A stretch of 64,000 nucleotides of DNA. Source: Heterotrichella gracilis (Eukaryota > Sar > Xanthophyceae > Tribonematales > Xanthonemataceae). Positions 8,457-41,500 of the stretch are shown in pieces. A model generated the notes under the pieces. The model searched no databases and was not told the DNA's origin. It saw only the letters and a program-made list of their open reading frames with translations. The translations under genes were made by a program, and so were the position numbers. How positions within the stretch are numbered: the first letter of the stretch is position 1; each line of letters opens with the position of its first letter. The stretch is from NCBI GenBank assembly GCA_032358255.1, contig JAULBX010026940.1, forward strand, positions 496,001 through 560,000. The letters run 5' to 3'.

Positions 8457-9307
8457 ATTTTGCTTGATGACGGCAACGCGAAGCATTGAGCGAGGTGGTG
8501 TGGGGGCAACCAAAAAATCAAATCCTGAATATTTTTGAACTTTATTTTTGGAGTCATTTTTTCCTTGATGACGGCAATGCGAGGCATTGAGCGAAGCGGT
8601 GCGGGAGCAACCAAAAAAGTCATTCTTTAATTAATTCTTGCCGTCACTTTTTGCTTGATCAAAAAGTAACCAAAAAATCAAGGCTTGCAAAGAAATTGCT
8701 CGATTTGTAGTTTTAATTTTAAATTGTCGCCCGCAAACTCGCCCCATCAGGAAATTCAGTTGTGAGGGGCTCAAACAGCGCGGGCTCATAGGATTTTAAA
8801 TGCAGCAGTACTACTCAAATACATAAAACCATTTAGCATTTAAAATCTGTCACGAAAATTAAAACACAAATCTATCGCAATTTCTTTGAGGCCACCTCAC
8901 TAGGTGTGCTCACGCGAACGGATTTTGCGAACGATAATTCTGCGGTTAGATGTTTGAGTTTTCGGCGCGTGGGCCGGGCAAAACGCTTGGCGTGGGAAGG
9001 GTGAATTGATTTTTTTGTAGAAAAGCAATAAAGGCGCTTGTCGTTTAAAATTCTGTTCTTTCCAAATAAAAAAGCGGAACAGAATTTTTTACTTTATTAG
9101 CTTTTCAAAAAAAATCAATAGCGGGTGGAAAGATCGTTTTGCCTTGTCTTTTGTTTACTTTTCGACTAAGGAAAAGTAAATGAAAAGAATTGTGCCGCCG
9201 CACAAAGCTGGCTCAAATGTGTTTGTGAACCTCATTTTGCTAAATCGCAAAATCCTACGCAAAAGCGACAAAAAAACATAAAGAAATTTCTGAACTTTTA
9301 TTTCTGT
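8457..9307. repeat. Structured intergenic repeat, copy 1
   Basis: No gene is supported between 8391 and 9942; the stretch is two head-to-tail copies of a folded repeat. Copy 1 contains two ~60-bp hairpin modules around AATGC-nnn-GCATT (8461-8520 and 8552-8618), a terminal hairpin that begins GTCACTTTTT and ends AAAAAGTAACC (8643-8671), the three-armed core (8688-8888), a GC-rich stem module (8908-8974) and a long palindrome (9006-9118). It closes with hairpins around ATTTTGC/GCAAAAT (9234-9253) and TTGTGC/GCACAA-type pairs. 8596-8921 is identical by eye to 9352-9677 in copy 2. Short ORFs here read through the repeat in the same way at other loci and are not genes. Confidence 0.85.
8688..8888. 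other. Three-armed folded core of repeat copy 1
   Basis: The outer arms (CAAAGAAATTGC at 8688 and GCAATTTCTTTG ending 8888) continue inward as ATTTGT/ACAAAT and GTTTTAATTTT/AAAATTAAAAC, about 29 paired positions. They enclose two hairpins. The first has outer stem GCCCGC/GCGGGC (8729-8734, 8780-8785), an internal loop AAACTC / TCAAACAGC, and apical stem GCCCC/GGGGC (8741-8745, 8766-8770). The second is a 12-bp stem starting GATTTTAAATGC. Equivalent cores are at 9444-9644, 28648-28849 and, with the left arm replaced, 13100-13262. Confidence 0.8.
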
Positions 9308-9880
9308 CGTCACTTTTTCCTTGATGACGGCAATGCGAAGCATTGAGCGAGGCGGTGCGGGAGCAACCAAAAAAGTCATTCTTTAATTAATTCTTGCCGT
9401 CACTTTTTGCTTGATCAAAAAGTAACCAAAAAATCAAGGCTTGCAAAGAAATTGCTCGATTTGTAGTTTTAATTTTAAATTGTCGCCCGCAAACTCGCCC
9501 CATCAGGAAATTCAGTTGTGAGGGGCTCAAACAGCGCGGGCTCATAGGATTTTAAATGCAGCAGTACTACTCAAATACATAAAACCATTTAGCATTTAAA
9601 ATCTGTCACGAAAATTAAAACACAAATCTATCGCAATTTCTTTGAGGCCACCTCACTAGGTGTGCTCACGCGAACGGCATTGCGGCTGTGGCTTTGCGGT
9701 TAGGTGTTTGAGTTTTCGATCTTGATCTTTTGCAGAGATAGCCAGCGAGCTAAGCTTAGGCGGTTAGTTGAGGGCAATGCAAAGCATTGAGCCAGCATGT
9801 GTGTGGGCTTCACACTACCCTGCTCAAATATGCACTGCATATTTATCCTGCGCCAAAAGTGACAAAAAAAATGAAAAAAA
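9308..9880. repeat. Structured intergenic repeat, copy 2
   Basis: Starts with the AATGC hairpin module, then the terminal hairpin 9399-9427 and core 9444-9644. After 9677 it leaves copy 1 and follows the variant end seen in copy 4: 9482-9768 is identical by eye to 13100-13386 (287 bp). It then has an AATGC-aaa-GCATT hairpin, a GTGTG/CACAC hairpin at 9801-9815, the hairpin AAATATGC/GCATATTT (9826-9844) and a right end GCGCCAAAAGTGAC followed by an A run. Confidence 0.85.
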
Positions 9881-9942
9881 TATCTTGAAAAATTCACGGT
9901 TTTTTTTCATTAAAAAATAAAATAAACGCAAGAACAGATTAT

Positions 9943-10395
9943 TTATCGTTCTGCTATTTCTTTTAACTTCTTAAGCGCAATTGGCCACATCTCATTCATC
10001 ATGGCATCCCATGCCTCGTTGCTATCGAGCTCGGCGATAAAGCGGGTGCTGTTGTCGCTGATCTTTTCTAAAGTATAATTTTCGTACATGGGCGCCCAGG
10101 CTTTTACCTCATCGCTACTAGTGTCTTCAATGCCTTTTACAATTTGGCCGTAATGTTTAATGGAGAGGTAAGAAGGCTGCTCACTTTTTTCGATCTGCGA
10201 AAGCATGCCTCCGGTTTTTCCCTCATCGTCTATTCCTAAAAAACGAATATTATCACCTTCGTTCCAACTGCCTTCAAAATAGGAAGTGGGGTTAAAAGCA
10301 GCAGTCCATTCGCTGTAAGTTTTAGTTCCTATAACGGCTTGCCAAACTTTTTCGCGGCTGGCATTAATGGTAATTTCGTAACGTAATTTTTTCAT
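9943..10395 (-). CDS. SRPBCC-fold protein (AHSA1/START-like)
   Basis: 150 aa. It opens with the family signature of AHSA1/polyketide-cyclase-like proteins, KKLRYEITINASREKVWQAVIGTKTYSEW, continues with strands ending in GSWNEGDNIRFLG and GMLSQIEKSEQPSYLSIKHYG, and ends with the long C-terminal helix (DAMMNEMWPIALKKLKEIAE) that closes the hydrophobic cavity. Proteins of this type bind small hydrophobic ligands or act as co-chaperone-like domains. No catalytic residue is assignable. It is downstream of a lipoprotein gene on the same strand (40 bp gap). Confidence 0.85.
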   Translation of the reverse strand: MKKLRYEITINASREKVWQAVIGTKTYSEWTAAFNPTSYFEGSWNEGDNIRFLGIDDEGKTGGMLSQIEKSEQPSYLSIKHYGQIVKGIEDTSSDEVKAWAPMYENYTLEKISDNSTRFIAELDSNEAWDAMMNEMWPIALKKLKEIAER

Positions 10396-10435
10396 GATAT
10401 TTAATTATTTAGTATTTAAAATAATTTTTTTAAAG

Positions 10436-11119
10436 TTAACAGCTTAACGGCATTTCAACAATTATTATTTTGTTTATTAGTTGTCCTGTGCTTTTTTGTT
10501 TGCCGGTTACGGTTAAAATGTAACGGTAAATAATTGCACTAAAAGGCGCTTCGTTAGCTGAGCTTAAAGCCGAAATTTTATTGTAATAATTCTCACCGCA
10601 ATGGTTTTTTACTTTATTTTTTAGTTCTTCCATATCTATTTCAGGAAGGGTAAAGCTTTCGTATTTGTCGGCAACAAAATGACCAGCAGCATTTTTTTCT
10701 AATTTTCTGTTAGGTGAATAAAAAATTTGCAAGGTATCGAGTGTACAAGGTGCTTCTTCGCCAATATCAATTTGCAACGTTCTTTCGCAGCGTTGTTCTA
10801 CAGTAATATCAGTAAGTTGTTCTGACGTAACTACCAATTCTTCACCCTCCATAGAAACACCAAGTTGTGGATGTATAAAGGCTGTATCTTTTGTATCAGC
10901 ATTAAAGGACAGTAAATTATACACGTCGGCTTTTACCCAATCACCAATAGACAAGGTGAACTCATTAAATTTAATGGCAAGAGCTTCTTGTTCTTTATTT
11001 GTTGAGCTGCTATCTGTTTTAGGAGGCGCTTGTTTGTTTTCGCTGATGTCAGACCCGGTGTTGCAAGACCAAAGACCAGTACATAAAAGAAGAACGTTTA
11101 TTTTATTTATGATACTCAA
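10436..11119 (-). CDS. Hypothetical lipoprotein
   Basis: 227 aa. Signal peptide with lipobox LWSC at about residues 16-19, then a Ser/Thr/Asn/Lys linker (residues ~25-45) and a mixed alpha/beta domain. Four cysteines in the mature part (EQRCERT, APCTLD, NHCGEN, MPLSC-stop) could form two disulfides, consistent with a periplasm- or surface-exposed lipoprotein. No family was recognised. It follows the small Cys-rich lipoprotein gene by 9 bp and precedes the SRPBCC gene, so the three are probably co-transcribed. Confidence 0.7.
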   Translation of the reverse strand: MSIINKINVLLLCTGLWSCNTGSDISENKQAPPKTDSSSTNKEQEALAIKFNEFTLSIGDWVKADVYNLLSFNADTKDTAFIHPQLGVSMEGEELVVTSEQLTDITVEQRCERTLQIDIGEEAPCTLDTLQIFYSPNRKLEKNAAGHFVADKYESFTLPEIDMEELKNKVKNHCGENYYNKISALSSANEAPFSAIIYRYILTVTGKQKSTGQLINKIIIVEMPLSC

Positions 11120-11128
11120 CCTATTAAA

Positions 11129-11350
11129 TTATTTTATAAGGCATTGCGTATAATTTCCATCAACATCTACAGGTGTAGAGCGATCGTTGCATTTTTTCTG
11201 GCGTTTGGCGGCTGTACCTTTAACGATAAAAGTACCTTTACCACCACTTTCGGGACGATTTGTATTGTAAGCTGTGCACTCGCAGGTGTATTTTTTACAA
11301 GCTGTTGTAAAAAATACAAGTATCACTGAAAGTGTAAAAAATAGTTTCAT
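11129..11350 (-). CDS. Small cysteine-rich lipoprotein (CKKxxCxC family)
   Basis: 73 aa. Signal peptide and lipobox TTAC are followed by KKYTCECTAYN, then a Lys-rich segment with a single Cys (KRQKKCNDRS), and the protein ends QCLIK. The same layout (lipid-attachment Cys plus K/R-K, a CxC pair, one mid Cys, a Cys four residues from the end) is shared with four tandem genes at 55.8-56.9 kb, so this is a dispersed paralog. Four mature cysteines would allow two disulfides. Function unknown; membrane-anchored in periplasm or at the surface. Confidence 0.75.
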   Translation of the reverse strand: MKLFFTLSVILVFFTTACKKYTCECTAYNTNRPESGGKGTFIVKGTAAKRQKKCNDRSTPVDVDGNYTQCLIK

Positions 11351-11593
11351 GATTTTTTTTAATCTATTACTAAATTACAAAAACAAAGACACTTTAGGAA
11401 ATTCTTTAACTTGTCATTATGCTTTTTTTATCAATTGGAGCAGAGGAAATAGGCCGTGCAAATTTGAGCCAGCTTTGTCAGACCGCAATTCTGTGTTTGC
11501 TCAGGCGTAAAACCCAAATACCTTTACCTAAAGCAGTAGCTGTTATATCAAACAAGCCAAATTTCAATTAACTATTTTCATACAACTCTTTAG

Positions 11594-11601
11594 TATATTT
11601 G
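11594..11601 (+). promoter_or_regulatory. -7 promoter box TATATTTG
   Basis: An exact TAnnTTTG match, ending 5 nt before the ATG at 11607. Transcription would begin at or next to the start codon. The -33 element is unclear. The 256-bp gap 11351-11606 otherwise holds a fragment resembling the repeat-edge phrase GAGCCAGCTTTGT near 11466. Confidence 0.5.
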
Positions 11602-11606
11602 TAATA

Positions 11607-12440
11607 ATGAAACTCATTAAAGATCTTCAAATTGCAGGAAGCAAAGACAAACCCATTTTGCTGGATTGTTTTTATAAAGACGATGCAACAGCAAAACCAA
11701 TAATTATTTTTTCGCATGGCTTTAAAGGCTTTAAAGATTGGGGACATTTTAATTACATGGCGCAACAATTTGCAGAAGCGGGTTTTATCTTCATTAAATT
11801 TAATTTCTCACACAACGGCACTACGGTTAGCGACCCACAAAATTTTGGCGACCTCGAAGCTTTTGGCAATAACAATTATATTATTGAGCTAGACGATCTT
11901 AAAAAAGTAATGGATTGGAGCTTAAGTTCTGCCGATCTTAAAAACGAAAGCGACACTAATAAATTGTATTTACTCGGGCATAGTCGTGGGGGTGGCATCA
12001 CCATTTTAAAAGCAGGAGAAGACAGTCGCGTAAAAAAAATAGTTACCTGGGCCTCGGTAAGCCAGATGGACCGAAACAAACCATTAACGGTTGAAACCTG
12101 GAAACGTGATGGCGTGGTGTACGCCAAAAATGCGCGCACGAAACAAAATATGCCCTTGTATTACCAGTTTTACGAAAGCATCTTAGCAAATAAAGAGCGC
12201 CTTAATATTAACCATGCTGTAAAACGCTTAAGCATTCCTTTTTTAATTGTGCACGGCACTTCTGATACGGCGGTGAAGTATCACGATGCCGAAGAACTCT
12301 TACACAGCGCGAAACGTGGCGAGCTTTTAAAAATAGAAAATGGTGATCACACCTTTGGTGTGAAACATCCTTTTGTATTACCGCTTCCTGAAATGGCAAA
12401 AGAGGTGATCGAAAAAACGATTGGTTTTTTTCAGCAGTAA
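11607..12440 (+). CDS. Alpha/beta hydrolase (dienelactone-hydrolase/S9-like)
   Basis: 277 aa. The oxyanion region is IIIFSHGFKGFKDWG near residue 33, the nucleophile elbow GHSRGG near residue 128, the acid is probably Asp in HGTSDTAV near 219 and the catalytic His is in NGDHTFGV near 247. The order and spacing fit a serine alpha/beta hydrolase without a large lid. The substrate is unknown (ester or short peptide). No signal peptide, so cytoplasmic. It is monocistronic: a promoter box sits directly at the start, and repeat DNA follows its stop. Confidence 0.88.
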   Translation: MKLIKDLQIAGSKDKPILLDCFYKDDATAKPIIIFSHGFKGFKDWGHFNYMAQQFAEAGFIFIKFNFSHNGTTVSDPQNFGDLEAFGNNNYIIELDDLKKVMDWSLSSADLKNESDTNKLYLLGHSRGGGITILKAGEDSRVKKIVTWASVSQMDRNKPLTVETWKRDGVVYAKNARTKQNMPLYYQFYESILANKERLNINHAVKRLSIPFLIVHGTSDTAVKYHDAEELLHSAKRGELLKIENGDHTFGVKHPFVLPLPEMAKEVIEKTIGFFQQ

Positions 12441-12454
12441 AAAACTATTATTTA

Positions 12455-12862
12455 ATTTTTTTTCTTTACTTTTCTTTTGTCGAAATACGTTTAATTTTAT
12501 GAGGCCACCTTACTAAGTGTGCATACGCGAACAGATTTTGCGGATGGTAATTCTGCGGTTAGATGTTTGGGATATCCGCGCGAGCGCACACAGTTTTCCG
12601 GCCTCATAAAATTAAACGTGAAAATCTTTGTGGCTTTAAAAGCGGGTACAAAAAAGTCTTCTACAAATATGCATCAAGAAGTTTCGTGACGACTTTTTTG
12701 GGCAGGATGTGCGGGGAAGCCATGCTGTTTGAGGGCACACAGATTTATCTCTGGCCCGAGTTCATGGCTTCGGCTTAAAGCCATAAAGATTTTAGTTTAA
12801 TTTTATGCAGCCTTGACTTTTGCCAACTTTTTGTCAAGAAAAAGTTGGTTAAAAAAATATTT
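12455..12862. repeat. Structured intergenic repeat, copy 3 (GGCCTCAT type)
   Basis: No gene is supported between 12441 and 13570. Copy 3 has a perfect 20-bp inverted repeat (12487-12506 with 12600-12619) enclosing a stem GTGTGC/GCACAC (12517-12522, 12586-12591). The right arm can instead pair with GTTTAATTTTATG at 12795-12807, enclosing AAAAAAGTC/GACTTTTTT and the hairpin GAAGCCATG/CATGGCTTC (12716-12724, 12763-12771). Inside that hairpin the minus strand shows AACTC and TCAAACAG internal-loop strands and apical stem GGGC/GCCC. The right end is hairpin CCAACTTTTT/AAAAAGTTGG. Copy 6 has the same build. Confidence 0.82.
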
Positions 12863-12878
12863 CGTAAATAATTTTTGG

Positions 12879-13530
12879 AGTCACTTTTTCCTTGATGACG
12901 GCAATGCGAGGCATTGAGCGAGGTGGTGCGGGGTAACCAAAATCCCGATAGCTATCGGGACAAGGCTTACAAAGGGCAAATAAGCTGTGCTTATTTGAGC
13001 CGGCTGGTGCGTAGTTTGATTTGTAGTTTTGTTTGCACACAGGCTGGCTCGTCGCTAAAAATGTTTGCCAAACATTTTCTTAACGCTCCGCCCTAAATAG
13101 TCGCCCGCAAACTCGCCCCATCAGGAAATTCAGTTGTGAGGGGCTCAAACAGCGCGGGCTCATAGGATTTTAAATGCAGCAGTACTACTCAAATACATAA
13201 AACCATTTAGCATTTAAAATCTGTCACGAAAATTAAAACACAAATCTATCGCAATTTCTTTGAGGCCACCTCACTAGGTGTGCTCACGCGAACGGCATTG
13301 CGGCTGTGGCTTTGCGGTTAGGTGTTTGAGTTTTCGATCTTGATCTTTTGCAGAGATAGCCAGCGAGCTAAGCTTAGGCGGTTAGTAGATTAGGCACAAT
13401 GAAAGTGAAGCTTAGCGAGGCGGCGGTTTTTCTTTCGCTGCCTCTACGTCGCGAAAGAAAAAATCTCCTTCAAAAGATCAAATGCGTTTTGGTTACTTTT
13501 GAGCGCCAAAAGTGACAAAAAAAACGTAAA
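12879..13530. repeat. Structured intergenic repeat, copy 4 (chimeric)
   Basis: Starts with the AATGC hairpin module. The usual left arm of the core is replaced by hairpins CAAATAAGC/GCTTATTTG (12977-12997) and AAAATGTTT/AAACATTTT (13058-13078). From 13100 to 13386 it is identical by eye to copy 2. It ends with palindrome TTTTTCTTTCGC/GCGAAAGAAAAA (13427-13438, 13451-13462) and a terminal hairpin from GGTTACTTTT to AAAAGTGAC (13491-13516). It lies just downstream of the defence operon and its GNAT gene. Confidence 0.83.
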
Positions 13531-13570
13531 CAGTTTTCTGTGAATTTATTTTTTATGAATTTTAAAAAAG

Positions 13571-14110
13571 CTATTTTTTTAACAACCCATAATAAACCAA
13601 ATCTACCAACTCACCACTGGTAGTCTTATAATCCTTACGGAGCAACCCTTCTTTTTCAAAACCGAGTTTTTCTGCGAGGGCGCAGGCCTCTGTGTTGGAG
13701 GGTTGTGTGCGTAAAAATAATTTTGTAAAGCCCAGCTCATTAAATAAATGGTTGATGACAATTTGCATGGCTTGTTTAGAAATGCCTTTGCTTAAATAGT
13801 CTTTTGCTAAAAAACAACCAAACTCTGCTTTTGGAATGTTCCAATCTATATTTTTTACATCAATGTAACCAACCGCATTTTGGTTGGTAGTATCTATTAT
13901 TATAAAAGGAAAATACTCTTTTGCCTCGCGGCGTTTCATATTGTTAGCAATAAATTCTTCGGTGGCTTCTAAAGTTTTTGTTTTGCTAACGGTACCTGCA
14001 AAACCGCTCTCCAGGCGAGGGCGATTGGCCTCAACCATTTTAAAAAATGCCGCCGCATCGTTTTGCTGCATGGGACGGATGAGGTAATTATGGAAGGGGG
14101 TAGGGTGCAT
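13571..14110 (-). CDS. RimJ/RimL-type GNAT acetyltransferase
   Basis: 179 aa from the ATG at 14110 (MHPTPFHNYLIRPM); the longer frame to 14215 would overlap the upstream nuclease gene by 68 bp and adds a non-conserved basic stretch, so the shorter start is preferred. The domain has the RimJ/RimL layout: YLIRPMQQNDAAAFF, AVGYIDVKNIDWNIPKAEFGCFLAKDYLSKGISKQA (acetyl-CoA loop with K-G-I-S-K), FLRTQPSNTEACALAEKLGFEKEG. Such enzymes acetylate protein N-termini or small molecules. It is 37 bp after the defence-operon nuclease and may ride on that transcript without being part of the system. Confidence 0.85.
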   Translation of the reverse strand: MHPTPFHNYLIRPMQQNDAAAFFKMVEANRPRLESGFAGTVSKTKTLEATEEFIANNMKRREAKEYFPFIIIDTTNQNAVGYIDVKNIDWNIPKAEFGCFLAKDYLSKGISKQAMQIVINHLFNELGFTKLFLRTQPSNTEACALAEKLGFEKEGLLRKDYKTTSGELVDLVYYGLLKK

Positions 14111-14147
14111 GGATAATAGCTTATTAATAAGAGCAAATCGAATTAAG

Positions 14148-15173: not shown

Positions 15174-15219
15174 CTAACCTCGACTTTTTGCAGTCTTTTT
15201 CGAATTTAAAATATGTTTT

Positions 15220-17103: not shown

Positions 17104-17107
17104 GCGC

Positions 17108-28343: not shown

Positions 28344-28400
28344 TTGCTTAACCACAAAGAGCACTGAGAAGGCACAAAGAACACCAAGTTTATTTTAAAA

Positions 28401-28432
28401 AGAAAGCCTGTTAGAAATAGCGGGCTTTTTTG
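28401..28432 (+). terminator. Intrinsic terminator
   Basis: AAAGCCTG pairs with CGGGCTTT across a short loop and is followed by a T run, 58 bp after the stop of the T9SS gene. Confidence 0.85.
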
Positions 28433-28489
28433 TTGTAGAAATATTTTTTTGCTTTACTTTTTTCTATCAAATACTGGAAATTCCTGAAC

Positions 28490-29250
28490 TTTATTTTTGG
28501 CGTCACTTTTTGCTTGATGACGGCAATGCCGAGCATTGAGCGGGATGGTGTGTTGGCAAGCAAAAAATCAAATCCTGAAAATTTCTGAACTTTATTCTTG
28601 TCGTCACTTTTTGCTTGATCAAAAAGTAACCAAAAAATCAAGGCTCACAAACAAATTGCTCGATTTGTAGTTTTAATTTTAATCGGTCGCCCGCAAACTC
28701 GCCACGTTCAAGAAATGCCGTGCGAGTGGCTCAAACAGCGCGGGCTCATAGGATTTTAAATGCAGCAATACTGCTCTAATACATAAAACTATTTATGCAT
28801 TTAAAATCTGTCACGAAAATTAAAACACAAATCTATCGCAATTTCTTTGAGGCCACCTCACTAGGTGTGCTTACGCGTACCGCATTTGTATATAATAATT
28901 GTGCGGTTAGATGTTTGGGTTTTCGGTGCGTAGGCCGGGCAAAACGCTTGGCGTGCGAAGGAGTGAATTGATTTTTTTGTAGAAAGGCAATAAAGGCGCT
29001 TGTCGTTTAAAATTCTGTTCTTTCCAAACAAAAAAGTGGAACAGAATTTTTTACTTTATTAGCCTTTCAAAAAAAATCAAGAGCGGGTGGAAAGATCGTT
29101 TTGCCTTGCGTTTTGGTTACTTTTGCGCTACAAAAGTGACAAAAAAAACATACTGAAAAGTTAAATAAATTTTATAAAGCAATCGCAAATGCTGGCTCAA
29201 ATGTGTCCCACACATTTGCCCTGCTACAAAAGTGACAAAAAAAAATAAAG
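28490..29250. repeat. Structured intergenic repeat, copy 5
   Basis: No gene is supported between 28344 and 29307 (convergent neighbours). Copy 5 has the AATGC hairpin module (28502-28566), terminal hairpin 28603-28631, core 28648-28849, GC stem (28869-28876 with 28928-28935), long palindrome (28982-29068) and right terminal hairpin 29115-29140, then hairpin CAAATGTG/CACATTTG (29198-29218). It is the most diverged relative of copy 1: the apical stem is GCCAC/GTGGC instead of GCCCC/GGGGC and the palindrome stem GAAAGGC/GCCTTTC instead of GAAAAGC/GCTTTTC, both still complementary. Confidence 0.85.
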
Positions 29251-29307
29251 GAATTTCGAATAAGAAAAAAGTTAGATAAAGAAAATCATAAAACATTTTA
29301 AAAAAGG

Positions 29308-31656: not shown

Positions 31657-31664
31657 TAATTTTG
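31657..31664 (+). promoter_or_regulatory. -7 promoter box TAATTTTG
   Basis: Exact TAnnTTTG 33 bp upstream of the ATG at 31698, leaving a short leader. No convincing -33 element. Confidence 0.4.
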
Positions 31665-31697
31665 TATCATAAATATTAACCTCTAAAAAAATAAATT

Positions 31698-32483: not shown

Positions 32484-32487
32484 CAAC

Positions 32488-32585
32488 CGTCATCGCGAGG
32501 ATTTTGCGCTTTAGCAAAAAGTGACGAAGCGATCTCGATCAACTGCCTATGAGATTGCTTCGGGCGAAAAGCCCTCGCAATGACG
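32488..32585. repeat. CGTCAT...ATGACG palindromic repeat
   Basis: CGTCATCGCGAGG at the left and CCTCGCAATGACG at the right pair with one mismatch and enclose ATTTTGC/GCAAAA-type and GAAGCGATCTC/GAGATTGCTTC hairpins. This matches a palindromic repeat type seen widely in bacterial genomes (from memory, unchecked). It lies directly after a stop codon. Confidence 0.72.
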
Positions 32586-32592
32586 AACACAA

Positions 32593-32633
32593 AAAAACCC
32601 GCAAATAATTGGTTTTAGGTGCGGGTTTTTCTT
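32593..32633 (+). terminator. Intrinsic terminator
   Basis: AAAAACCCGC pairs with GCGGGTTTTT across an 18-nt loop, ending in a T run. Followed at 32638-32664 by an imperfect palindrome TAATTGTTTG/CAAACAATTA. Confidence 0.8.
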
Positions 32634-32689
32634 TTGTTAATTGTTTGTGCAAGCAAACAATTACCCTTCTTTGGCGCAAGAGAACTCTA

Positions 32690-33290
32690 GAAATAACTCC
32701 TGAACTTAATCTTTGCCGTCACTTTTTGCTTGATCAAAAAGTAACCAAAAAATCAAGGCTTTCTTAAAATTTTGCTAAAAACCTTCATTCTTCAAGCCGA
32801 TGATTTAAGCGCTTCGCGAACAGCCAAAATCATCTTCGCGCTTGCCAACGCCTTTGAAGAATTAAGGTTTTTTTAACGCAAAATTTTAAAAGGCCAACTC
32901 GCATTGTGTGCTTACGCGGAAAGATTTGCGGATGTTGATTTTGCGGCCAGGAGTTTAAGTTATCCGCGTGAGCAAACACAGCATTCCGGCCTCATAAAAT
33001 TAAACGTGAAAATCTTTATGGCTTTAAATGCGGGCACAAAAAAGCCTTCGATAAATAGGCATTAAGAATTTTCGTGACGACTTTTTTGGGCAGGTTGTGT
33101 GGAGAAGCCATGCTGTTTGAGGGCACACAGAATATTTCTCTGGCCCGAGTTCATGGCTTCAGCTTAAAGGCATAAAGATTTTAGTTTAATTTTATGCAGC
33201 CTTGACTTTTTTGTTACTTTTTGTGTTAAGACAAAAAGTAAGGCAAAAAAATTGTGCCGCCGCACAAACCGGCTGATATTGTTTACTCAC
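32690..33290. repeat. Structured intergenic repeat, copy 6
   Basis: No gene is supported between 32484 and 33317 apart from the palindrome and terminator listed. Copy 6 begins with the terminal hairpin 32718-32746 and a three-armed core whose outer arms are AAAATTTTGC (32766-32775) and GCAAAATTTT (32878-32887), with GATGATTT/AAATCATC (32799-32806, 32827-32834) inside. It has stem GCTTACGCGGA/TCCGCGTGAGC (32910-32920, 32963-32973) and then the copy-3-type block with hairpin GAAGCCATG/CATGGCTTC (33104-33112, 33152-33160) and right arm 33184-33196. Confidence 0.85.
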
Positions 33291-33317
33291 GAGTAAGGCT
33301 TCTCGCAGACGAAGCCA

Positions 33318-33662
33318 TTATCCTCCAGCTTTTTTCGCTTTATAACCTTCTTTTAAAAGCAATAAAATAAGTTTATCACGATGATCACCCTGAATTAAAA
33401 TTTCGCGGTCTTTTACAGTGCCGCCAACGCCGCATTTTTGTTTTAATAATTTTCCGAGGGTTTCAATATCTCCTGTCTTGCCCGTAAAACCAGTAATGCG
33501 CGAAACCGATTTTCCGCCGCCTAATCTGTCTAAATAAACTTTTAAAGGGGGCTGTCCTGTCTTTAAATTAAGTTCGTCTTCTTCCTCTTCAAAATTATCG
33601 GGCGTAAAATTTGGGTTGGTAGAATACACCAAACCGCCTTTGTTTTTATCTTTTTTGCTCAT
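33318..33662 (-). CDS. SUI1/eIF1-like translation factor (YciH family)
   Basis: 114 aa. The SUI1 core is KVYLDRLGGGKSVSRITGF ... IETLGKLLKQKCGVGGTVKDREILIQGDHRDKLILLLLKEGYKAKKAGG, with the (K)CGxGGTVK loop typical of YciH/eIF1. An acidic linker (FEEEEDELN) lies near residue 25. Family role: binds the small ribosomal subunit, affecting start selection; its exact bacterial role is unsettled. It follows the TPR gene with a 4-bp overlap, implying coupled translation. Confidence 0.92.
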   Translation of the reverse strand: MSKKDKNKGGLVYSTNPNFTPDNFEEEEDELNLKTGQPPLKVYLDRLGGGKSVSRITGFTGKTGDIETLGKLLKQKCGVGGTVKDREILIQGDHRDKLILLLLKEGYKAKKAGG

Positions 33663-34747: not shown

Positions 34748-34798
34748 AATAATTCAAATATATACATTTATAAATAGAAATTTAAAACCGCTCTTAAA

Positions 34799-36514
34799 AT
34801 GATAAAATATTTAATGTATCAAAAAAATCCGGCATCGCACTATGTCTATATAGATATGTTTGTGGATGCCATTGCACAAGATACAGTTCAGTTGCAGCTT
34901 CCTGTTTGGCGTCCGGGCCGTTACGAGTTGGGAAATTTTGCTAAGAATATTAAACGGGTAGATGTTTTTAATGATAAGAATGAGGTTTTGCCTTATCACA
35001 AACTCAATAAAGATCTTTGGGAAATAAATACAAAAGGCTGTTCCTCTATTAAAGTTACTTACAGTTATTATTCTGCCGAATTAAATGCCGGTGCCTGTTT
35101 TGCAGATACAACACAATTGTATATGAACCCCGTACATTGCTGTATGTATGTGGTGGGTAGAATGGAGGAGGAGCATCGTGTAGAGTTAAACGTTCCCGAA
35201 AATTATAAGATCGTATGCTCTCTAAAAAAAGAAAAGAATGTGTTGATCGCGAAAAATTTTGAAGAGCTGGTAGATTCGCCTTTTGTTGCTTCCGAAAAAA
35301 TTCAAAGCGACTTTTACGAAGTAAACAACATTAAATTTTATTTACATTTTATTGGCGAGTGCAAACCCGACTTTAAATTAATGAAAGATAATTTCTCTGC
35401 TTTCACAGAAAAACAAATTGAATTTTGGAATGATTTTACCACAGACGAATATCATTTTATTTTTCAGGTACTGCCATTTAAATTTTATCATGGTGTTGAG
35501 CATGTTAAGAATACCGTTATTGCAATTGGTCCGGGTTACGACATTAACTCAGGCGCATCGTACGAAGATGTATTGGGCGTAAGTTGTCACGAATTATTTC
35601 ACTCGTGGAATATTAAAACCATTCGTCCAAAAGAAATGTTGCCTTACGATTATACCAAAGAAAATTATGCCAAAACCGGTTATGTCTATGAAGGCTTTAC
35701 AACATACTACGGGGATAAATTATTATTGAGCTCTAATGTTTTTACTTTGCAACAATATTTTAAAACACTCGAAGAACGCTTAACAAAGCATTTTCACAAT
35801 TTTGGTCGTTACAATTTATCTGTCGCCGATAGCAGCTGGGAAACCTGGTTGGATGGTTATGTGCCCGGCGCGCCCTATCGTAAAACAAATATTTATGATG
35901 AGGGAAGTTTAATTGCTTTTATGTTGGACGTAAAAATTTTACAGGCTACCCAAAATAAAAAACGATTGCGCGATGTGTGCGTTCTATTATATGAACGTTT
36001 TGGAAAAAAAGGAATTGGTTACTCTGAGAACAGCATTATTGAATTGGTGAATGAGGTAAGCGGTTTAGATCTGACTGATTTTTTCAAGAGCTATGTGTAT
36101 TCGCCGCAGGATTTTGAAGCGGAACTAAAACCTTGTTTCGACTATTTGGAAATTGACTTTATAAAACAAGCCAATACACATGAATGCGAGCATAAATATG
36201 GTTTTAAAGTAATGGACCATGGCCAAAACTCTAAAATAACTTTAGTTGCGCCCTATTCTCCCGCCTGGAAAGCCGGTTTATTTAACAATGATGAAATTAT
36301 TGCTGTAAACGGCATTGCCCTAAAAGGTAATCTTAACAACTGGTTACAGTATTTTAAGGACGAAAAGGAGTTAGTTTTAACAATAAACTCTGCAGAACAC
36401 ATTAAAACGATGGTTTTGCAGGGCGATAAAAAGGGAAATACCTACTTTTTTAACCCTGTTTTAAAAGCAAAAAACGAATCAAATGTTAATTTTATGGCAT
36501 GGAAAGGCTTATAA
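34799..36514 (+). CDS. M61-family metallopeptidase with PDZ domain
   Basis: 571 aa. The zinc motif HELFH lies near residue 264 in LGVSCHELFHSWNIKTIRP, and the third ligand is Glu in YVYEGFTTYYGDKLLL near 303, both diagnostic of M61 glycyl aminopeptidases. N-terminal ~170 residues form the family beta domain; a PDZ-like segment (ITLVAPYSPAWKAGLFNNDEIIAVNG) occupies ~480-545. No signal peptide, so probably cytoplasmic. It removes N-terminal small residues from peptides. Divergent from the TPR gene by 51 bp. Confidence 0.93.
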   Translation: MIKYLMYQKNPASHYVYIDMFVDAIAQDTVQLQLPVWRPGRYELGNFAKNIKRVDVFNDKNEVLPYHKLNKDLWEINTKGCSSIKVTYSYYSAELNAGACFADTTQLYMNPVHCCMYVVGRMEEEHRVELNVPENYKIVCSLKKEKNVLIAKNFEELVDSPFVASEKIQSDFYEVNNIKFYLHFIGECKPDFKLMKDNFSAFTEKQIEFWNDFTTDEYHFIFQVLPFKFYHGVEHVKNTVIAIGPGYDINSGASYEDVLGVSCHELFHSWNIKTIRPKEMLPYDYTKENYAKTGYVYEGFTTYYGDKLLLSSNVFTLQQYFKTLEERLTKHFHNFGRYNLSVADSSWETWLDGYVPGAPYRKTNIYDEGSLIAFMLDVKILQATQNKKRLRDVCVLLYERFGKKGIGYSENSIIELVNEVSGLDLTDFFKSYVYSPQDFEAELKPCFDYLEIDFIKQANTHECEHKYGFKVMDHGQNSKITLVAPYSPAWKAGLFNNDEIIAVNGIALKGNLNNWLQYFKDEKELVLTINSAEHIKTMVLQGDKKGNTYFFNPVLKAKNESNVNFMAWKGL

Positions 36515-36622
36515 ATCAGACGAAATCAAAAAAATGTTAAAAACTTTTTTAAAATTGGCGCTTGCAGTTTAAAAGAAAAAATTAATTTCAATCAATTAAT
36601 ATTAACTAAAAAAAACTAAACG

Positions 36623-37093
36623 ATGGAACAACAAACACAAACAACACCAGGAACTGATGCCGCAAAAAGACCGGTATTTTTAACTGTATTATGTATTTTA
36701 TCATTTATTGCTGCAGGCTTAGCAATTTTAGGCTACATTACTTTAATTACTGTAATGGGTGCTGTAACAGCAGGAGCTTCTGCATTAGAAGGTATGTCAG
36801 GCGAAGCTGGATCAGCTGGAGCTGCTATGTCTGAAGCAATGTCACACGGACCAAGTGCTGGTATGACATGGGCTTACATTGCAGTAGGTTTTGTTACTGT
36901 ATTAGTATCTTTATTTGGCGTTATTAAAATGTGGAAACTACAAAAAATTGGCTTTTTCCTTTATGTAGGAGCTACTGTAGTATCTATCATTATGACAATT
37001 GTTTATAGCGGATTTGGTTCTGGTATGATGTCAATTGTTTTTGGTGCTTTATTCATTGTACTTTACGGTTTAAACCTAAAACACTTAAAATAA
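36623..37093 (+). CDS. Small four-helix membrane protein, tandem paralog A
   Basis: 156 aa with hydrophobic segments at about 17-42, 80-100, 105-125 and 128-150. Conserved phrases FLTVLCILSFIAAGL, VIKMWKLQKIGFFLYVGA and FGALFIVLYGLNLKHLK recur in the genes at 38029 and 38636, marking a local paralog family. A Met/Ser/Gly-rich periplasmic loop (AMSEAMSHGPS) is specific to this copy. Function unknown; family members are common in Bacteroidota. Followed by a terminator, so it is expressed apart from the downstream cluster. Confidence 0.78.
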   Translation: MEQQTQTTPGTDAAKRPVFLTVLCILSFIAAGLAILGYITLITVMGAVTAGASALEGMSGEAGSAGAAMSEAMSHGPSAGMTWAYIAVGFVTVLVSLFGVIKMWKLQKIGFFLYVGATVVSIIMTIVYSGFGSGMMSIVFGALFIVLYGLNLKHLK

Positions 37094-37108
37094 TCTTTTT
37101 TAATTTTT

Positions 37109-37144
37109 AAAAAGTCCCTTCTTTTATAAAGGAGGGACTTTTTA
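37109..37144 (+). terminator. Intrinsic terminator
   Basis: AAAAGTCCCT pairs with AGGGACTTTT with a small internal loop and is followed by a T run. Confidence 0.87.
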
Positions 37145-37229
37145 TTTGTTAAAAACTTTACAAGACCTTAACCTCATGTCTAATAAAAAGAGGCTACTTT
37201 CACTCAATTATTAATTTAAAAAACAAAAA

Positions 37230-37628
37230 ATGGAACAAAACACTACAACACCTGCAGGAAATAACGGAAAAGGTTTAGGCATTGCAGGTATGATCTTAGG
37301 AATTTTAGCAATTATCGTATCATTTGTTCCCTGCTTTGGCTGGTGGGCAATAGTTTTAGCGGTAGTTGGTGTAATTTTATCGGCAGTTAGCATGGCTCAG
37401 GCAAAAAAAGCAAATGCCCCAAAAGGTATGGCAATTGCTGGTTTGATCTGCTCTATACTTGCTATCATTATTGGTTCTATCTGGATCTTTGTTATTGCAA
37501 AAGCAGTTACAGAAGGTGGCGCTATGTTTAAAGATGCAATGGAAAAATCTGGTGCAATGGATTCTTTAACAAAAGCAATGGATCAACTAAAACAGTTAAC
37601 AGATACGTTAAACGTTCCACAACAATAA
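37230..37628 (+). CDS. DUF4190-like membrane protein
   Basis: 132 aa. Two hydrophobic hairpins (AGMILGILAIIVSFVPCFGWWAIVLAVVGVILSAVSMAQAKK and GMAIAGLICSILAIIIGSIWIFVIAKAV), each with the GIAGxxLGILAI pattern, fit the DUF4190 fold. An amphipathic C-terminal tail (MFKDAMEKSGAMDSLTKAMDQLKQL) follows. Function unknown. The next gene starts immediately after its stop (TAA then ATG), so translation is coupled. Confidence 0.83.
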   Translation: MEQNTTTPAGNNGKGLGIAGMILGILAIIVSFVPCFGWWAIVLAVVGVILSAVSMAQAKKANAPKGMAIAGLICSILAIIIGSIWIFVIAKAVTEGGAMFKDAMEKSGAMDSLTKAMDQLKQLTDTLNVPQQ

Positions 37629-38024
37629 ATGCGTAAAGCGCCCAGCTATGTAATAATAAGTTTGGTGTTTTTTATATTAATAGGAGTAGGCTTTGCTTAC
37701 TCCTATTTTTTTTATCCTAATGATCATCCGCTGGATTGTGCCATAAAAGCCGCCACCGGTAAAGATTGTCCGTCCTGCGGATTTTCGCGTGCTTTTAGCA
37801 ATTACACCCATTTTCATTTTAAAGAAGGAAGGGATTTTAACAGTTTATCCTGGCCTTTCTTTTTATTTTTTTCTTTTCAGTTGTTCTTAAGAGGGGCAAT
37901 TGTTTTAATTTATTTGTTAAAACCTAAACTAATTTCTCGCAGCTTCGTTAAAATAGAACTAGTTATTAGTGTTTTACTCTTCTTATCAGTGGCTCTTCCT
38001 TTAGTATTAACCTTTAAAATTTAA
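37629..38024 (+). CDS. DUF2752 membrane protein
   Basis: 131 aa with three hydrophobic segments. The diagnostic DUF2752 motif is present: HPLDCAIKAATGKDCPSCGFSRAFSNYTHFHF, with the CPxCGxxRA signature. Its function is not established; it usually sits beside other small membrane proteins, as here. It directly abuts the DUF4190-like gene and lies 4 bp before the next paralog, so the cluster 37230-38562 is probably one transcript. Confidence 0.9.
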   Translation: MRKAPSYVIISLVFFILIGVGFAYSYFFYPNDHPLDCAIKAATGKDCPSCGFSRAFSNYTHFHFKEGRDFNSLSWPFFLFFSFQLFLRGAIVLIYLLKPKLISRSFVKIELVISVLLFLSVALPLVLTFKI

Positions 38025-38028
38025 ACAA

Positions 38029-38562
38029 ATGGAAAACAGTATTGATTCAACAAACGAAATTAAACATGGTCGCCCAACATTATTATCGGTTACATGTGTG
38101 TTAACCTGGGCATGCTGCGCATTATTATTGATCTCGTCTTTATCGGGATTAATTACTCAATCGCCCGAGAAGCAATTGGAACAGATAGAACAATTGCGAA
38201 AGATCAGTCCCGAAGCTGCCGACAAAATGGAAGCGGCATTAGCCGATGAAGGCGGTGCAAAAAAGATCCTTACCACTCTGCTCAACATTCTTGCAATTGC
38301 ATTATGTGCATTTGGCGCCGTGCAAATGTGGAATTTAAAACAAACAGGATTTTATTTTTATTTGATAGGCGAAGTTGTTCCATACATCGGTCTTATATTT
38401 GGTGGTACAGATGCGCTTGCCGCGGCCAGTGCGATGGCAGGAAGTATGGGTTCTGCAGTAATAGGTATTGTAATAACACTGTTGATAGTTTTTGACGCTG
38501 TGTTTATAGTGTTATATGCTGTAAATTTAAAATACATGGTACCTCCCAGCCAATTCGATTAA
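38029..38562 (+). CDS. Small four-helix membrane protein, tandem paralog B
   Basis: 177 aa. Same layout as the gene at 36623: LLSVTCVLTWACCALLLISS, a soluble helical loop (LEQIEQLRKISPEAADKMEAALAD), VQMWNLKQTGFYFYLIGE and DAVFIVLYAVNLKYM. It is diverged in sequence from its paralogs but keeps the WKLxxxGFFxY and NLKxM signatures. Start is 4 bp after the DUF2752 stop. Confidence 0.78.
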   Translation: MENSIDSTNEIKHGRPTLLSVTCVLTWACCALLLISSLSGLITQSPEKQLEQIEQLRKISPEAADKMEAALADEGGAKKILTTLLNILAIALCAFGAVQMWNLKQTGFYFYLIGEVVPYIGLIFGGTDALAAASAMAGSMGSAVIGIVITLLIVFDAVFIVLYAVNLKYMVPPSQFD

Positions 38563-38635
38563 TTAATTTTTGATCTCATTAGTATTTCACTGTTTTTATT
38601 AGCATTTTTACTTTTATTATAAAACGTAAACGCTA

Positions 38636-39142
38636 ATGGAAAATACTATGAATGACGGGTTTCAAAATGATATTGCACCGCTGCCGGAGAAGCCTCAATT
38701 TTTAAAAATAATTTGTATTATTTCTTTTGTAGCCTGCGGCTTAATGATTTTGCTGTATGGCCTGGGCTCATTTTGTCTTGTAATAGGCGAAGATACTATT
38801 ACCAATGTTTGGGATAAAATAATTGCGCAACAACCGCAGTTAGAAGAAATGGATCCTATCGTATTTTTTAATGAAATAGGAAAACTGTGTCTGTATAATT
38901 TCTTTGCTAACATCCTGTCGTTAGTTGGCGTAATAATGATGTGGCGTTTAAACAAAATTGGTTTTTTTATTTACGTAGCGGCAGAACTAGTTACAAATTT
39001 TTTAGGATTAGATATTGGTGTTGCTGATGGAGCAAAATCTTACGGCTCGTTGATCGTTTCAATTTTAATTGACTCTGTTTTTATTATCATGTATGCTATT
39101 AATTTAAAGCACATGAAAGGAACTCAAAATTCTATCTCTTAA
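38636..39142 (+). CDS. Small four-helix membrane protein, tandem paralog C
   Basis: 168 aa, third member of the local family: FLKIICIISFVACGLMILLYG, loop IIAQQPQLEEMDPIVFFNEIGK, VIMMWRLNKIGFFIYVAAE and DSVFIIMYAINLKHMKG. The position-specific loops differ in all three, suggesting divergence of the exposed part with a conserved membrane core. The POT transporter follows 27 bp later on the same strand. Confidence 0.78.
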   Translation: MENTMNDGFQNDIAPLPEKPQFLKIICIISFVACGLMILLYGLGSFCLVIGEDTITNVWDKIIAQQPQLEEMDPIVFFNEIGKLCLYNFFANILSLVGVIMMWRLNKIGFFIYVAAELVTNFLGLDIGVADGAKSYGSLIVSILIDSVFIIMYAINLKHMKGTQNSIS

Positions 39143-39169
39143 ATCTAAACTCATAAATCTTAAATCTGT

Positions 39170-40840
39170 ATGGAATCAAAATATCCCAAAGGACTTTTCT
39201 TTTTAGTGTTTACCGAATTTTGGGAGCGCTTTGGTTATTACTTAATGATCGGCATCTTTTTTCTTTACATGACGGCTGATGCCAAAGAAGGAGGGATGGG
39301 TTGGGATAATGCTACCGGCGCAGATATATTTGGAACTTTTATTGCCTTAGCTTATTTAACGCCCTTTATGGGTGGGCTTTTAGCCGATCTTAAATTAGGT
39401 TATCGTTTTTCAATTACGCTGGGTGGTATCTTAATGGGTATTGGTTATTGCATGCTGGCTATTCCCGAAAAGTGGGCCTTTTTTACATCGCTTGCAGTAA
39501 TGGTAGTTGGTAACGGTTTCTTTAAACCAAACATTGCAACCCTTTTAGGAAATTTATATAACGACCCGCGCTACCGTGCCAATAAAGATACCGGCTATAA
39601 TATTTTTTATATGGGCATTAACGTTGGCGCCCTTGTTTGTAATTTTGTGGCTGCCATTATGCGAAATAAAATCGGCTGGCACGGCGCTTTTATTACTGCG
39701 GGTATAGGTATGTTCTTAGGTGTAATAACGTTTTGGTTAGGAATGAAGCATTACAAGCACGTAGATGTGCGTAAAGAACCCAAACCGGAAGATAAGCCAT
39801 TTATTATGCAGTTTGTAAAGGTGCTTTTAACCGGCTTAGCATTTGCAGTTGTAGGTTGGATCTTACCAAACGCTATTGGAGGAAAGGAGAATGAAGTATT
39901 TACCATCATGGGAAGCCAGAGCACGGATGCGTTTTTTATGTTCTGCATACCGGTAGTATATTTTTATGCTTCCATATTTAAAAAGGCAAATGCGGAAGAA
40001 CGCAAACCGTTAGGAACCATGTTCACTATTTTTATAATCGTGATATTGTTTTGGGCTATCTTTAAACAAAACGGTACGGCGCTAACAACCTACGCAGAAA
40101 GCTATACAAACAGAGAAATTCCTACATCCGTGCTGCCTGTTACCAAATTTTTTAGTTTTTCTGAAGAATTGGTTGCAAAAAATAAAGAAGTTAACCAGGT
40201 AGACGAACAGTTCAGAAAAATAAAAGGTCTGGATGGTAAGCCTGTGAAGTGTATGGATTACCCCTTGTACTTTAAAAACATTGATAGTTCTAAAATGCCT
40301 GCGCAGGGTCAATCGGTCAACCTTTTAAATACAGAGATCTTTCAATCGATTAATCCGTTTTTCGTTGTTGCCCTCACGCCTTTTATCATTGCTTTTTTTG
40401 CATTTATGCGCAAGCGAGGCAAAGAACCAACAACAGCAACCAAAATTGCTTACGGATTATTTATCAGCGCGCTTTCAACGTTGGTAATGGTTGCTGCTGT
40501 TCATTATACTGATAATGGTATGCATAAGGCTAGTGCCTGGTGGTTGGTAGCAAGTTATGGTGTTATAACGGTTGGCGAATTGTTGCTTAGCCCAATGGGT
40601 TTATCGATGGTATCTAAATTAGCGCCCTTGCGTTTAGCGGCGCTGATGATGGGTGGTTGGCAACTAGCAACTTCTATTGGTAATAAATTAAGTGGTGTGC
40701 TTGCAAAGAACTGGGATAAGTTTGATAACAAAGCAAATTATTTTTGGTTGAATTTTGCCTTGCTCATGTTTGCCTTTTTAATTATGATGCTTTTATTGAA
40801 ACGCCTGAATAAGGTTTTTCATGAAGGGAAAGAGAACTGA
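39170..40840 (+). CDS. Proton-dependent oligopeptide transporter (POT/PTR family)
   Basis: 556 aa. Characteristic motifs: ExxER proton-coupling region as EFWERFGYYLMIG, the FFKPNIATLLG signature, and FYMGINVGALVCNFVAA. Twelve or more transmembrane helices and a longer loop in the middle (YTNREIPTSVLPVTKFFS...) fit bacterial peptide symporters of the DtpA/YjdL type. It takes up di- and tripeptides with protons. It may share regulation with the adjacent small-membrane-protein cluster. Confidence 0.95.
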   Translation: MESKYPKGLFFLVFTEFWERFGYYLMIGIFFLYMTADAKEGGMGWDNATGADIFGTFIALAYLTPFMGGLLADLKLGYRFSITLGGILMGIGYCMLAIPEKWAFFTSLAVMVVGNGFFKPNIATLLGNLYNDPRYRANKDTGYNIFYMGINVGALVCNFVAAIMRNKIGWHGAFITAGIGMFLGVITFWLGMKHYKHVDVRKEPKPEDKPFIMQFVKVLLTGLAFAVVGWILPNAIGGKENEVFTIMGSQSTDAFFMFCIPVVYFYASIFKKANAEERKPLGTMFTIFIIVILFWAIFKQNGTALTTYAESYTNREIPTSVLPVTKFFSFSEELVAKNKEVNQVDEQFRKIKGLDGKPVKCMDYPLYFKNIDSSKMPAQGQSVNLLNTEIFQSINPFFVVALTPFIIAFFAFMRKRGKEPTTATKIAYGLFISALSTLVMVAAVHYTDNGMHKASAWWLVASYGVITVGELLLSPMGLSMVSKLAPLRLAALMMGGWQLATSIGNKLSGVLAKNWDKFDNKANYFWLNFALLMFAFLIMMLLLKRLNKVFHEGKEN

Positions 40841-40842
40841 TT

Positions 40843-41500
40843 TTTTTCTTTACTTTTTCTTAATCGAAAAGTAAAGAAAAGACCCCGCAAAAATTCTTTT
40901 TGTCACTTTTGGCGAAGGATTTTGCGCTTTAGCAAAATGAGGTTCACACAATTCATATTTAAGCCAGCTTTGTGCGGTCGCACAATTTTTCTTCTTTACT
41001 TTTCTTCTGTCGAAATACGTTTATGATTTTTTTGTCACTTTTGGCGCGCAAAAGTAACCAAAACGCATTTGATCTTTTGAAGGAGATTTTTGCTTTCGCG
41101 ACGTAGAGGCAGCGAAAGCAAAACCGCTGCCTCGCTAAGCTTCACTTTCTGCGTGCCTAATCAACCAACCGCCTAGCTTAGCTCGCTAGCTATCTCTGCA
41201 AAAGATCAAGATAGAAAACTCAAACACCTGTACGCAAATTCACTTCTGTAAAGCCGTTCGCGTAAGCAAACAATGTGAGTCGGCCTTTTAAATTTTTTCG
41301 TTTAAAATCATTATTCTTCAAAAGCGTCGGATTGTGTGAAAGATGATTTTGGCTGTTCGCGAAGCGCTTAAATCATCAGGCTTGAAGGATAATAGATTTT
41401 TAGAAAAAATTTAAATAAGCCTTGATTTTTTGGTTACTTTTTGATCAAGCAAAAAGTGACGGCAAGAATAAGTTCTGAAAATTATTTTTTTGGTTGTTGT
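40843..41500. repeat. Structured intergenic repeat, copy 7 (opposite orientation)
   Basis: No gene is supported between 40841 and 41518 (convergent neighbours). The left edge carries hairpins CTTTACTTTT/AAAAGTAAAG and ATTTTGC/GCAAAAT. The element proper runs between terminal hairpins at 41034-41059 and 41432-41460. Inside are palindrome TTTTGCTTTCGC/GCGAAAGCAAAA (41088-41099, 41112-41123), a relative of the copy 2/4 variant end, and a three-armed core with outer arms AAATTTTTTC (41290-41299) and GAAAAAATTT (41403-41412). Confidence 0.85.

Follow-up and report, generated by a model that had tools for sequence, protein, structure and literature searches.

We describe here a family of structured intergenic repeats in a 64,000-nt stretch of DNA (the window; positions 496,001 to 560,000 of contig JAULBX010026940.1, assembly GCA_032358255.1, deposited as Heterotrichella gracilis), which we assign to Bacteroidota because it contains type IX secretion system (T9SS) genes. 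The contig measures 608 kb and belongs to an assembly of 68.5 Mb. We lean towards the view that these repeats represent a non-coding mobile element that acts as a folded single strand and is moved in trans by an enzyme. Seven elements (E1 to E7) occupy five gaps between open reading frames (ORFs; 8391-9942, 12441-13570, 28344-29307, 32484-33317, and 40841-41518), and direct-repeat families were recovered just where an earlier sequence-only reading had placed seven related elements. Its statement that the copies have no ORF in common holds for frames of at least 80 aa, none of which lies inside any of the five gaps in the ORF table of the window. Additional copies reside on further contigs of this assembly and, like those of the window, follow a common plan: a head unit (labeled U1 or U2 in this analysis), a core of ~80-100 bp, and an inverted tail unit (U3, U4, or U5). 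This order was found in all 16 complete elements of the site table (window and relatives), the window copies being mosaics rather than simple repeats. Each unit consists of a pseudoknot-like terminal motif followed by a long hairpin arm that is closed by GGC/GCC and ends with GGCC, which also starts the core and often ends it. Within the terminal motif, the segments a (GTCACTTTTTG), b (CTTGAT), a' (CAAAAAGTAAC), and b' (ATCAAG) form helices of ~10 bp and ~6 bp with an A-rich linker (AACCAAAA); as these helices cross, they imply either a pseudoknot or two mutually exclusive hairpins.

Strong evidence for this fold came from a phylum-wide set of units. The terminal-motif pattern, which fixed the letters neighboring one b/b' base pair (the base after CTTGA and that before TCAAG) and left those two free, occurred in 34 of 395 Bacteroidota genomes, with 109 matches (row sums) versus 12 for the reversed control and 1 to 13 matches per carrier; the distribution is patchy and often multi-copy, and 7 or 8 of the single-match genomes are, judging from their sequence, probably chance hits. 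Among 51 distinct strings, derived from 92 of 102 units upon omission of 10 with a closing-stem score below 12, the free pair was Watson-Crick in 49 (T-A 33, C-G 10, A-T 5, and G-C 1), as compared with a mean of 24.9 and a maximum of 36 in 10,000 permutations. Removal of two doubtful units (L291 and L297) rendered 47 of 49 versus 24.5 permuted (maximum 36). The a/a' helix, in turn, scored 8.81 versus a permuted mean of 5.75 and a maximum of 6.36 (2,000 permutations). Eleven genomes contain two or three distinct Watson-Crick states of the free pair, as read from the listed places, which indicates that this pair has switched often. The exact arm-tip motif ACTCGCTTCGCTCARACAG was further detected 14 times in 4 of 296 Bacteroidota genomes and never with the reversed control; by eye, the hairpin arm that contains it follows an a..a' hairpin at all 14 loci, and b and b' pair with at most one non-Watson-Crick pair at 13. 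A tree-aware covariation test of the genus-level copies yielded for U1 two significant column pairs when all pairs were tested, of which one belongs to the structure (1 of 36 stem pairs) whereas the other does not, and 4 of 36 stem pairs in its stem-only version; none of 50 stem pairs was significant for either U2 or U4 (stem-only, two and one of 50, respectively). Within the genus this test has low power and the copies are weak evidence. The covariation between copies proposed in the sequence-only reading is real, although the evidence that makes it strong is that of the phylum-wide set.

Pairing was also kept in the long arms while their sequence turned over. Closing stems of 43 arms sharing less than 15% of their 12-mers, picked without regard to score and identically maximized over possible ends for own and mixed partners, reached a mean score of 22.3 with their own partner versus 10.7 when sides were mixed between units, and scores of at least 20 were attained by 31 of the 43 as opposed to 2.5% of the mixed ones. 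Conserved tip sequences are embedded in arms that are otherwise unrelated. Stems also diverged less than unpaired sites (substitution of 0.13 versus 0.21 at 80-90% identity, and of 0.049 versus 0.128 at 90-95%), and pair-keeping double changes numbered 768 in the former class and 42 in the latter, whereas independence would predict 246 and 9.8 double changes, pairing or not, figures that take stems from the predicted fold of one member per pair, draw on non-independent sequence pairs, and are inflated by block exchange. Roughly one third of the expected double changes would pair by chance, placing the excess of pair-keeping ones at about tenfold. Collectively, these data indicate that the fold is under constraint. 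With pairing kept far beyond chance, also in unrelated arms, we infer selection on the folded strand, as the sequence-only reading had argued. One point escaped that reading: within the genus, copies probably covary in part through the exchange of entire arms as blocks and not through compensatory point mutation.

The folded strand may be either RNA or single-stranded DNA (ssDNA) for a mobile-element enzyme, and the dichotomy drawn from the sequence alone stands. In every one of six compared unit sets, consensus folding favored the strand read from GGCC towards the terminal motif, as did raw folding energy in 24 of 34 arms preselected for a closing-stem score of at least 16 (p=0.001). Under composition control, this preference vanished (mean z of −5.45 versus −5.03 on the two strands, i.e., about −5.5 and −5.0; Wilcoxon p=0.26, same 34 arms), and we therefore claim no strand. 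Calling the strand from G-T versus A-C mismatches was discarded, because a simple scan of this kind, applied to 30 RNase P sequences, did not tell them apart from shuffles and is thus uninformative. These results bear on the proposal that the unit encodes a structured non-coding RNA, read from the terminal motif towards GGCC, with a possible cellular role of its own and spread as a secondary trait. Two covarying crossing helices make sense mainly in a folded single strand, and tips are conserved within arms of unrelated sequence; moreover, judging from known pseudoknots, the motif in unit direction would have H-type pseudoknot geometry, its third loop being A-rich, whereas on the other strand this loop would be nearly zero. 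However, the preferred strand and the G-U type intermediates that such an RNA predicts were not seen after composition control, orientation relative to neighboring genes is not fixed, and the copy number per carrier is unlike that of a housekeeping RNA. Rfam returned no match across the whole window at the curated gathering score and, between 8380 and 41560, just four sub-threshold matches at a permissive E-value, all outside the element bodies. We regard such an RNA as a possible but doubtful explanation.

We then compared the window sites with those of relatives, four metagenome-assembled genomes retrieved among species genomes via the element core, namely UBA2475 (G001), MAG-331 (G002), C12_metabat.bin.29 (G003), and MGR_bin173 (G004), in which the genes flanking the repeats are kept to varying degree. 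E12 and E34 designate the sites of E1+E2 and E3+E4, and E5, E6, and E7 the single-element sites. Both flanks were matched in nine site-by-genome rows (E5 in G001, G002, and G003; E6 in G001, G002, and G004, the left flank in the latter over just 167 bp; E7 in G001 and G003; and E34 in G002), seven of which hold a complete element. At E5, the window and G002 have a U4 tail, as opposed to U3 in G001 and G003, whereas E6 is U1-core-U3 in the window and U2-core-U3, in opposite orientation, in G002. Similarly, E34 consists of a headless core-U3 plus U2-core-U5 in the window and of an oppositely oriented U2-core-U4 in G002, while E7 is unchanged in composition and orientation across three genomes. 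Single-flank matches were obtained in four more rows (E5 in G004, E34 in G003, and E12 in G001 and G002); of these, E34 in G003 is U2-core-U4 in the reverse of the G002 orientation, a weaker comparison because the other neighbor gene differs. Elements thus stay at their sites while parts are swapped or orientation differs, the alternative for the changed sites being fresh insertion that replaced the old element at the same place. No unit was detected at the E6 site of G004, where a short readable stretch resembles a unit end plus core; this remnant adjoins a reverse reading frame that is GIY-YIG nuclease-like by eye (L273). As a separate observation, an element of G003 (L261, 8639-9424) lies between the left gene of E34 and the right gene of E12, a junction absent from the window that could be the product of recombination between two elements.

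Block exchange of units and either orientation at fixed sites would also result if the fold were functionless, with imperfect palindromes perfected by strand switching during replication and spread by recombination between copies. In line with this, fold stability is independent of the strand, and double changes are present already between copies 90-99% identical (42 and 2). Strand switching, however, perfects nested palindromes and leaves unexplained two covarying crossing helices, the conserved tips between changing stems, and the lower divergence of stems than of unpaired sites, which makes it an improbable account of the repeats.

Apart from folding, the units behave like mobile DNA in their patchy distribution, sharp ends, and indifference to gene orientation. 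They measure 164-308 nt, with a median of 191 (83 units from both clades with a closing-stem score of at least 16), and in four genomes (G223, G207, G301, and G310) the likeness between copies sets in near (T)GTTC, stops near AGGCC(G), and is slight outside these limits. In G351, two-unit elements carry terminal motifs ~290-430 bp apart in opposite orientation. Units also occur in plasmid records of a gut species that is in culture, Parabacteroides distasonis. A plasmid search with the window element produced matches limited to the terminal motif, in Bacteroidota records, and a phage collection contained no match to the element. In viral contigs, a loose pattern (AAGTAACCAAAA..AAGGC) matched 84 stretches, and among the 80 listed a script found a/a' pairing in four, one of them doubtful; the tip motif gave three stretches, which were inspected by eye.

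Lack of target-site duplications of at least 4 nt (0 of 36 units, 1.7 expected by chance), a T-rich, TTAT-like left flank in these units, sharp ends in four genomes, and conserved hairpins are all compatible with ssDNA transposition of HUH type, akin to IS200/IS605 or to the transposases (RAYTs) associated with repetitive extragenic palindromic (REP) sequences, in which a Y1 transposase would process the hairpins as ssDNA ends on the lagging strand. Furthermore, one report describes RAYT subclass 2.6 of Bacteroidetes as flanked by 'atypical secondary structures' (PMC6006769). Nonetheless, the flanked Y1/HUH transposase and the replication-strand bias that the ssDNA branch of the dichotomy predicts were not observed. 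Of the 72 Y1_Tnp matches in G000 and 16 carriers, 32 loci were inspected, none with a unit within ~1.5 kb; 3 of the 16 carriers, including the close relative G002, lack a Y1_Tnp match (assemblies may be incomplete); and 30 of 53 units agreed with GC skew (p=0.41), taken from up to 20 kb of surrounding sequence as a rough proxy for replication direction. We therefore deem this route unlikely.

Gene context was scored for 63 units, 21 of which lie between convergent, 8 between divergent, and 34 between co-directional genes. Without an orientation rule relative to genes, a cis-regulatory 5' or 3' leader was rejected. The surplus of convergent over divergent gaps, together with convergent ORFs flanking four of the five window gaps, is what transcription terminators or stabilizers of mRNA ends kept between convergent genes would show. 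Yet most of the scored units lie in co-directional gaps and some in divergent ones, and E5 and E6 are located downstream of what appear by eye to be the left gene's own short hairpin-plus-T-run terminators (~28404-28432 and ~32596-32632, respectively), so a terminator function is highly improbable.

Several results weigh against a mobile folded element. The stretch common to copies extends past the unit in G351, G263, G175, and G242. Movement was not observed and a clean empty site was not found, the E6 site of G001 having a 91-bp spacer with no detected unit and a different repeat (GCCACAGATTTCACAGATGACGCAGATT) in the element's place. No enzyme was found, the 25 Pfam families shown (of 133; 83 of 201 neighboring ORFs) including none tied to mobility, and no autonomous copy was found near the units, no genome-wide search for one having been made. 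At one of the 14 tip-motif loci (L233), the loop is opposite in sense and unpaired with b', and such loops cannot enter the covariation set, as the pattern demands CTTGA..TCAAG. Pair-breaking single-sided changes are common too, and single-sided changes lead to G-T less often than to A-C (316 versus 509 in the 80-90% class), so they do not hint at intermediates with wobble pairs on the unit strand. Finally, related copies swap arms as whole blocks, which means that part of the within-genus covariation need not reflect selection on each site. The most frequent Pfam families among the 83 neighboring ORFs occur just twice.

Balancing these points, we still favor a non-coding element moved in trans, and we infer both its movement as such and the existence of a trans-acting enzyme. 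In this model, the crossing helices, as a pseudoknot or as alternating hairpins, would constitute together with the long arm beside them the fold that the enzyme recognizes; in the clade of the window, two mutually inverted units would flank the core to give the head-core-tail order. More tentatively, the repeats may belong to a trans-phylum class of orphan mobile elements in which the replicating unit is a folded nucleic acid, made up of a pseudoknot head and an exchangeable arm, and is served by an enzyme new to such ends, perhaps through an RNA intermediate.

A look-alike in Proteobacteria offers a lead in this direction. A query taken from a viral contig led to a plasmid record of Aeromonas caviae and from there to records of Pseudoalteromonas, Pasteurella, and Burkholderia, a small, hand-read set without control (6 records read among 13 found). 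By eye, a first helix such as CTTTTCTTTG/CAAAGAAAAG has a loop that pairs downstream (GTGGCC/GGCCAC in Aeromonas; TCGCC/GGCGA in Pasteurella; TGCC/GGCA and TGCCC/GGGCA in two Pseudoalteromonas; GTCGCC/GGCGAC and, twice, TGGCC/GGCCA in viral contigs), so that a second helix is present in seven of eight distinct sequences; the Burkholderia sequence, identical in both records read, is without it. A long arm directly follows the motif in the Aeromonas, Pasteurella, and Pseudoalteromonas records. Of two Proteobacterial patterns run against viral contigs, one gave three loci already in the set and the other none. Common descent of the Proteobacterial and Bacteroidota forms is a lead; if true, the same plan in Gammaproteobacteria (Aeromonas, Pseudoalteromonas, and Pasteurella) would make the class old or widely transferred.

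Table. Positions of units, cores, and terminal motifs of elements E1 to E7 in the window.
Feature	Position	Strand	Basis
E1 left terminal motif a-b-a'-b' (GTCACTTTTTG/CTTGAT/CAAAAAGTAAC/ATCAAG), pseudoknot-like	8644..8685	+	sequence; crossing-helix covariation across relatives
E1 head unit U2, hairpin arm tip AAACTCGCC..GGCTCAAACAG	8673..8893	+	site table; arm alignment
E1 core (GGCC..GTGTGCTCACGCG..GCGGTTAGATGTTTGAGTT..GGCC)	8886..8985	+	sequence; site table
E1 tail unit U4, inverted	8969..9173	-	site table
E2 head unit U2	9429..9649	+	site table
E2 core	9642..9719	+	site table
E2 tail unit U5 (partial), inverted	9712..9869	-	site table
E3 core, head unit not found in front	12500..12587	+	site table
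E3 tail unit U3, inverted; tip AACTCGGGC..GCCCTCAAACAG on minus strand	12600..12824	-	sequence; site table
E4 head unit U2; extra nested hairpin modules at left end (12.88-13.09 kb)	13093..13267	+	sequence; site table
E4 core	13260..13337	+	site table
E4 tail unit U5, inverted	13331..13522	-	site table
E5 left terminal motif a-b-a'-b'	28603..28644	+	sequence; crossing-helix covariation
E5 head unit U2	28633..28854	+	site table
E5 core	28847..28946	+	site table
E5 tail unit U4, inverted	28931..29131	-	site table
E6 left terminal motif a-b-a'-b'	32718..32759	+	sequence; crossing-helix covariation
E6 head unit U1 (tip AAGCGCTTCGCGAACAG)	32748..32895	+	arm alignment; site table
E6 core	32891..32971	+	site table
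E6 tail unit U3, inverted	32988..33210	-	site table
E7 tail unit U5 (whole element in minus orientation)	41028..41218	+	site table
E7 core	41214..41286	-	site table
E7 head unit U1	41282..41430	-	site table
E7 terminal motif a-b-a'-b'	41419..41460	-	sequence; crossing-helix covariation

Besides the features of the Table, the window holds a variant of the terminal motif in which a' is swapped for a nested hairpin module (e.g., GATGACGGCAATGCGAAGCATTGAGCGAGGTGGTGCGGG; 12888-12973, 8470-8510, and 28515-28560), often in tandem with the normal motif. U1 arms, otherwise conserved, contain after the tip stem a hypervariable stretch of ~10 nt and nearly constant length, with TTCGCACATG, TTCCCACTTG, and TAGTCGCACG among its variants in the arm alignment. 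A separate palindromic repeat (CGTCATCGCGAGG..GAGATTGCTTCG..CTCGCAATGACG), similar by eye to CGTC-tagged REPs, maps to 32510-32600 and is also present at the orthologous site of G002, and other short dispersed repeats (ACCACAAAGAGCACTGAGAAGGCACAAAG and GCCACAGATTTCACAGATGACGCAGATT) were found at 28352-28388 of the window and at the E6 site of G001 (L246:9080-9172). Units may also lie close together in carrier genomes: contig C2 of G242 harbors eight within ~80 kb (303-381 kb; L232 and L236-L245), where the ~1.7 kb surrounding the 319.9-kb unit recur with 97% identity beside that at 324.7 kb, and contig C1 of G275 harbors six in 31 kb (597-628 kb), all in identical orientation.

As to known systems, the sequence-only reading recognized no described family, in agreement with the lack of Rfam matches and with the mostly open-access literature searched, which offered papers on REPs, miniature inverted-repeat transposable elements (MITEs), and non-coding RNAs and no description of these units; a text search by motif letters surfaced a single, unrelated paper. 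REPs and bacterial interspersed mosaic elements (BIMEs), RAYTs (TnpA-REP), and CGTC/GTAG REPs resemble the present repeats in being intergenic, palindromic, multi-copy, and devoid of an ORF, with stems that vary between families. REPs are reported to be 20-40 bp (PMC3733652) or 21-65 nt (PMC6006769) long, and CGTC REPs are reported without a dedicated transposase (PMC3733652), which was likewise not found for the present units. Several window copies have CGTC ahead of the stem, but the 36 units scored for target-site duplications do not as a rule. The units, however, are far longer, with crossing helices and interchangeable arms, and are not short single tagged hairpins; membership in REP/RAYT systems found no support, as a Y1 gene flanked by repeat copies was seen in none of the 32 loci examined. 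MITEs of Bacteroidota are similarly non-autonomous and lack a transposase gene. Both BrickBuilt of Porphyromonas gingivalis (PMC4596501), which is intergenic and present 19 times in one strain, and MITECca01 of Cardinium (PMC9769881) are described with terminal inverted repeats that trace back to an insertion sequence (IS). In the single units compared here, no terminal inverted repeats and no target-site duplications were seen; two-unit elements do carry inverted terminal motifs. IS200/IS605-derived elements are known for lack of target duplication, a T-rich left flank, and hairpin ends. The units share these three traits but were not linked to a Y1 transposase at any locus examined and show no replication-strand bias. 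Invertons of Bacteroidota are invertible DNA segments with inverted ends, a feature shared by the window elements, which likewise occur in opposite orientations at one site, here between species and not within one population. Integron attC sites are folded recombination sites with variable stems and few kept bases, and several cores do hold GTTAGAT/GTTAGGT; attC membership is not supported, since GTTRRRY is not in every copy (by eye, the E6 and E7 cores are without it at that position), and a cassette array was not seen near the window sites. Most small dispersed repeats of bacteria are either short hairpins with a known transposase or remnants of ISs, whereas the present repeat combines two crossing helices with long arms that pair while their sequence turns over. 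These crossing helices, the wide spread, and the failure to find an enzyme together suggest that folded nucleic acid is moved or used here in a way not yet described, a notion that is directly testable because records of P. distasonis carry the unit.

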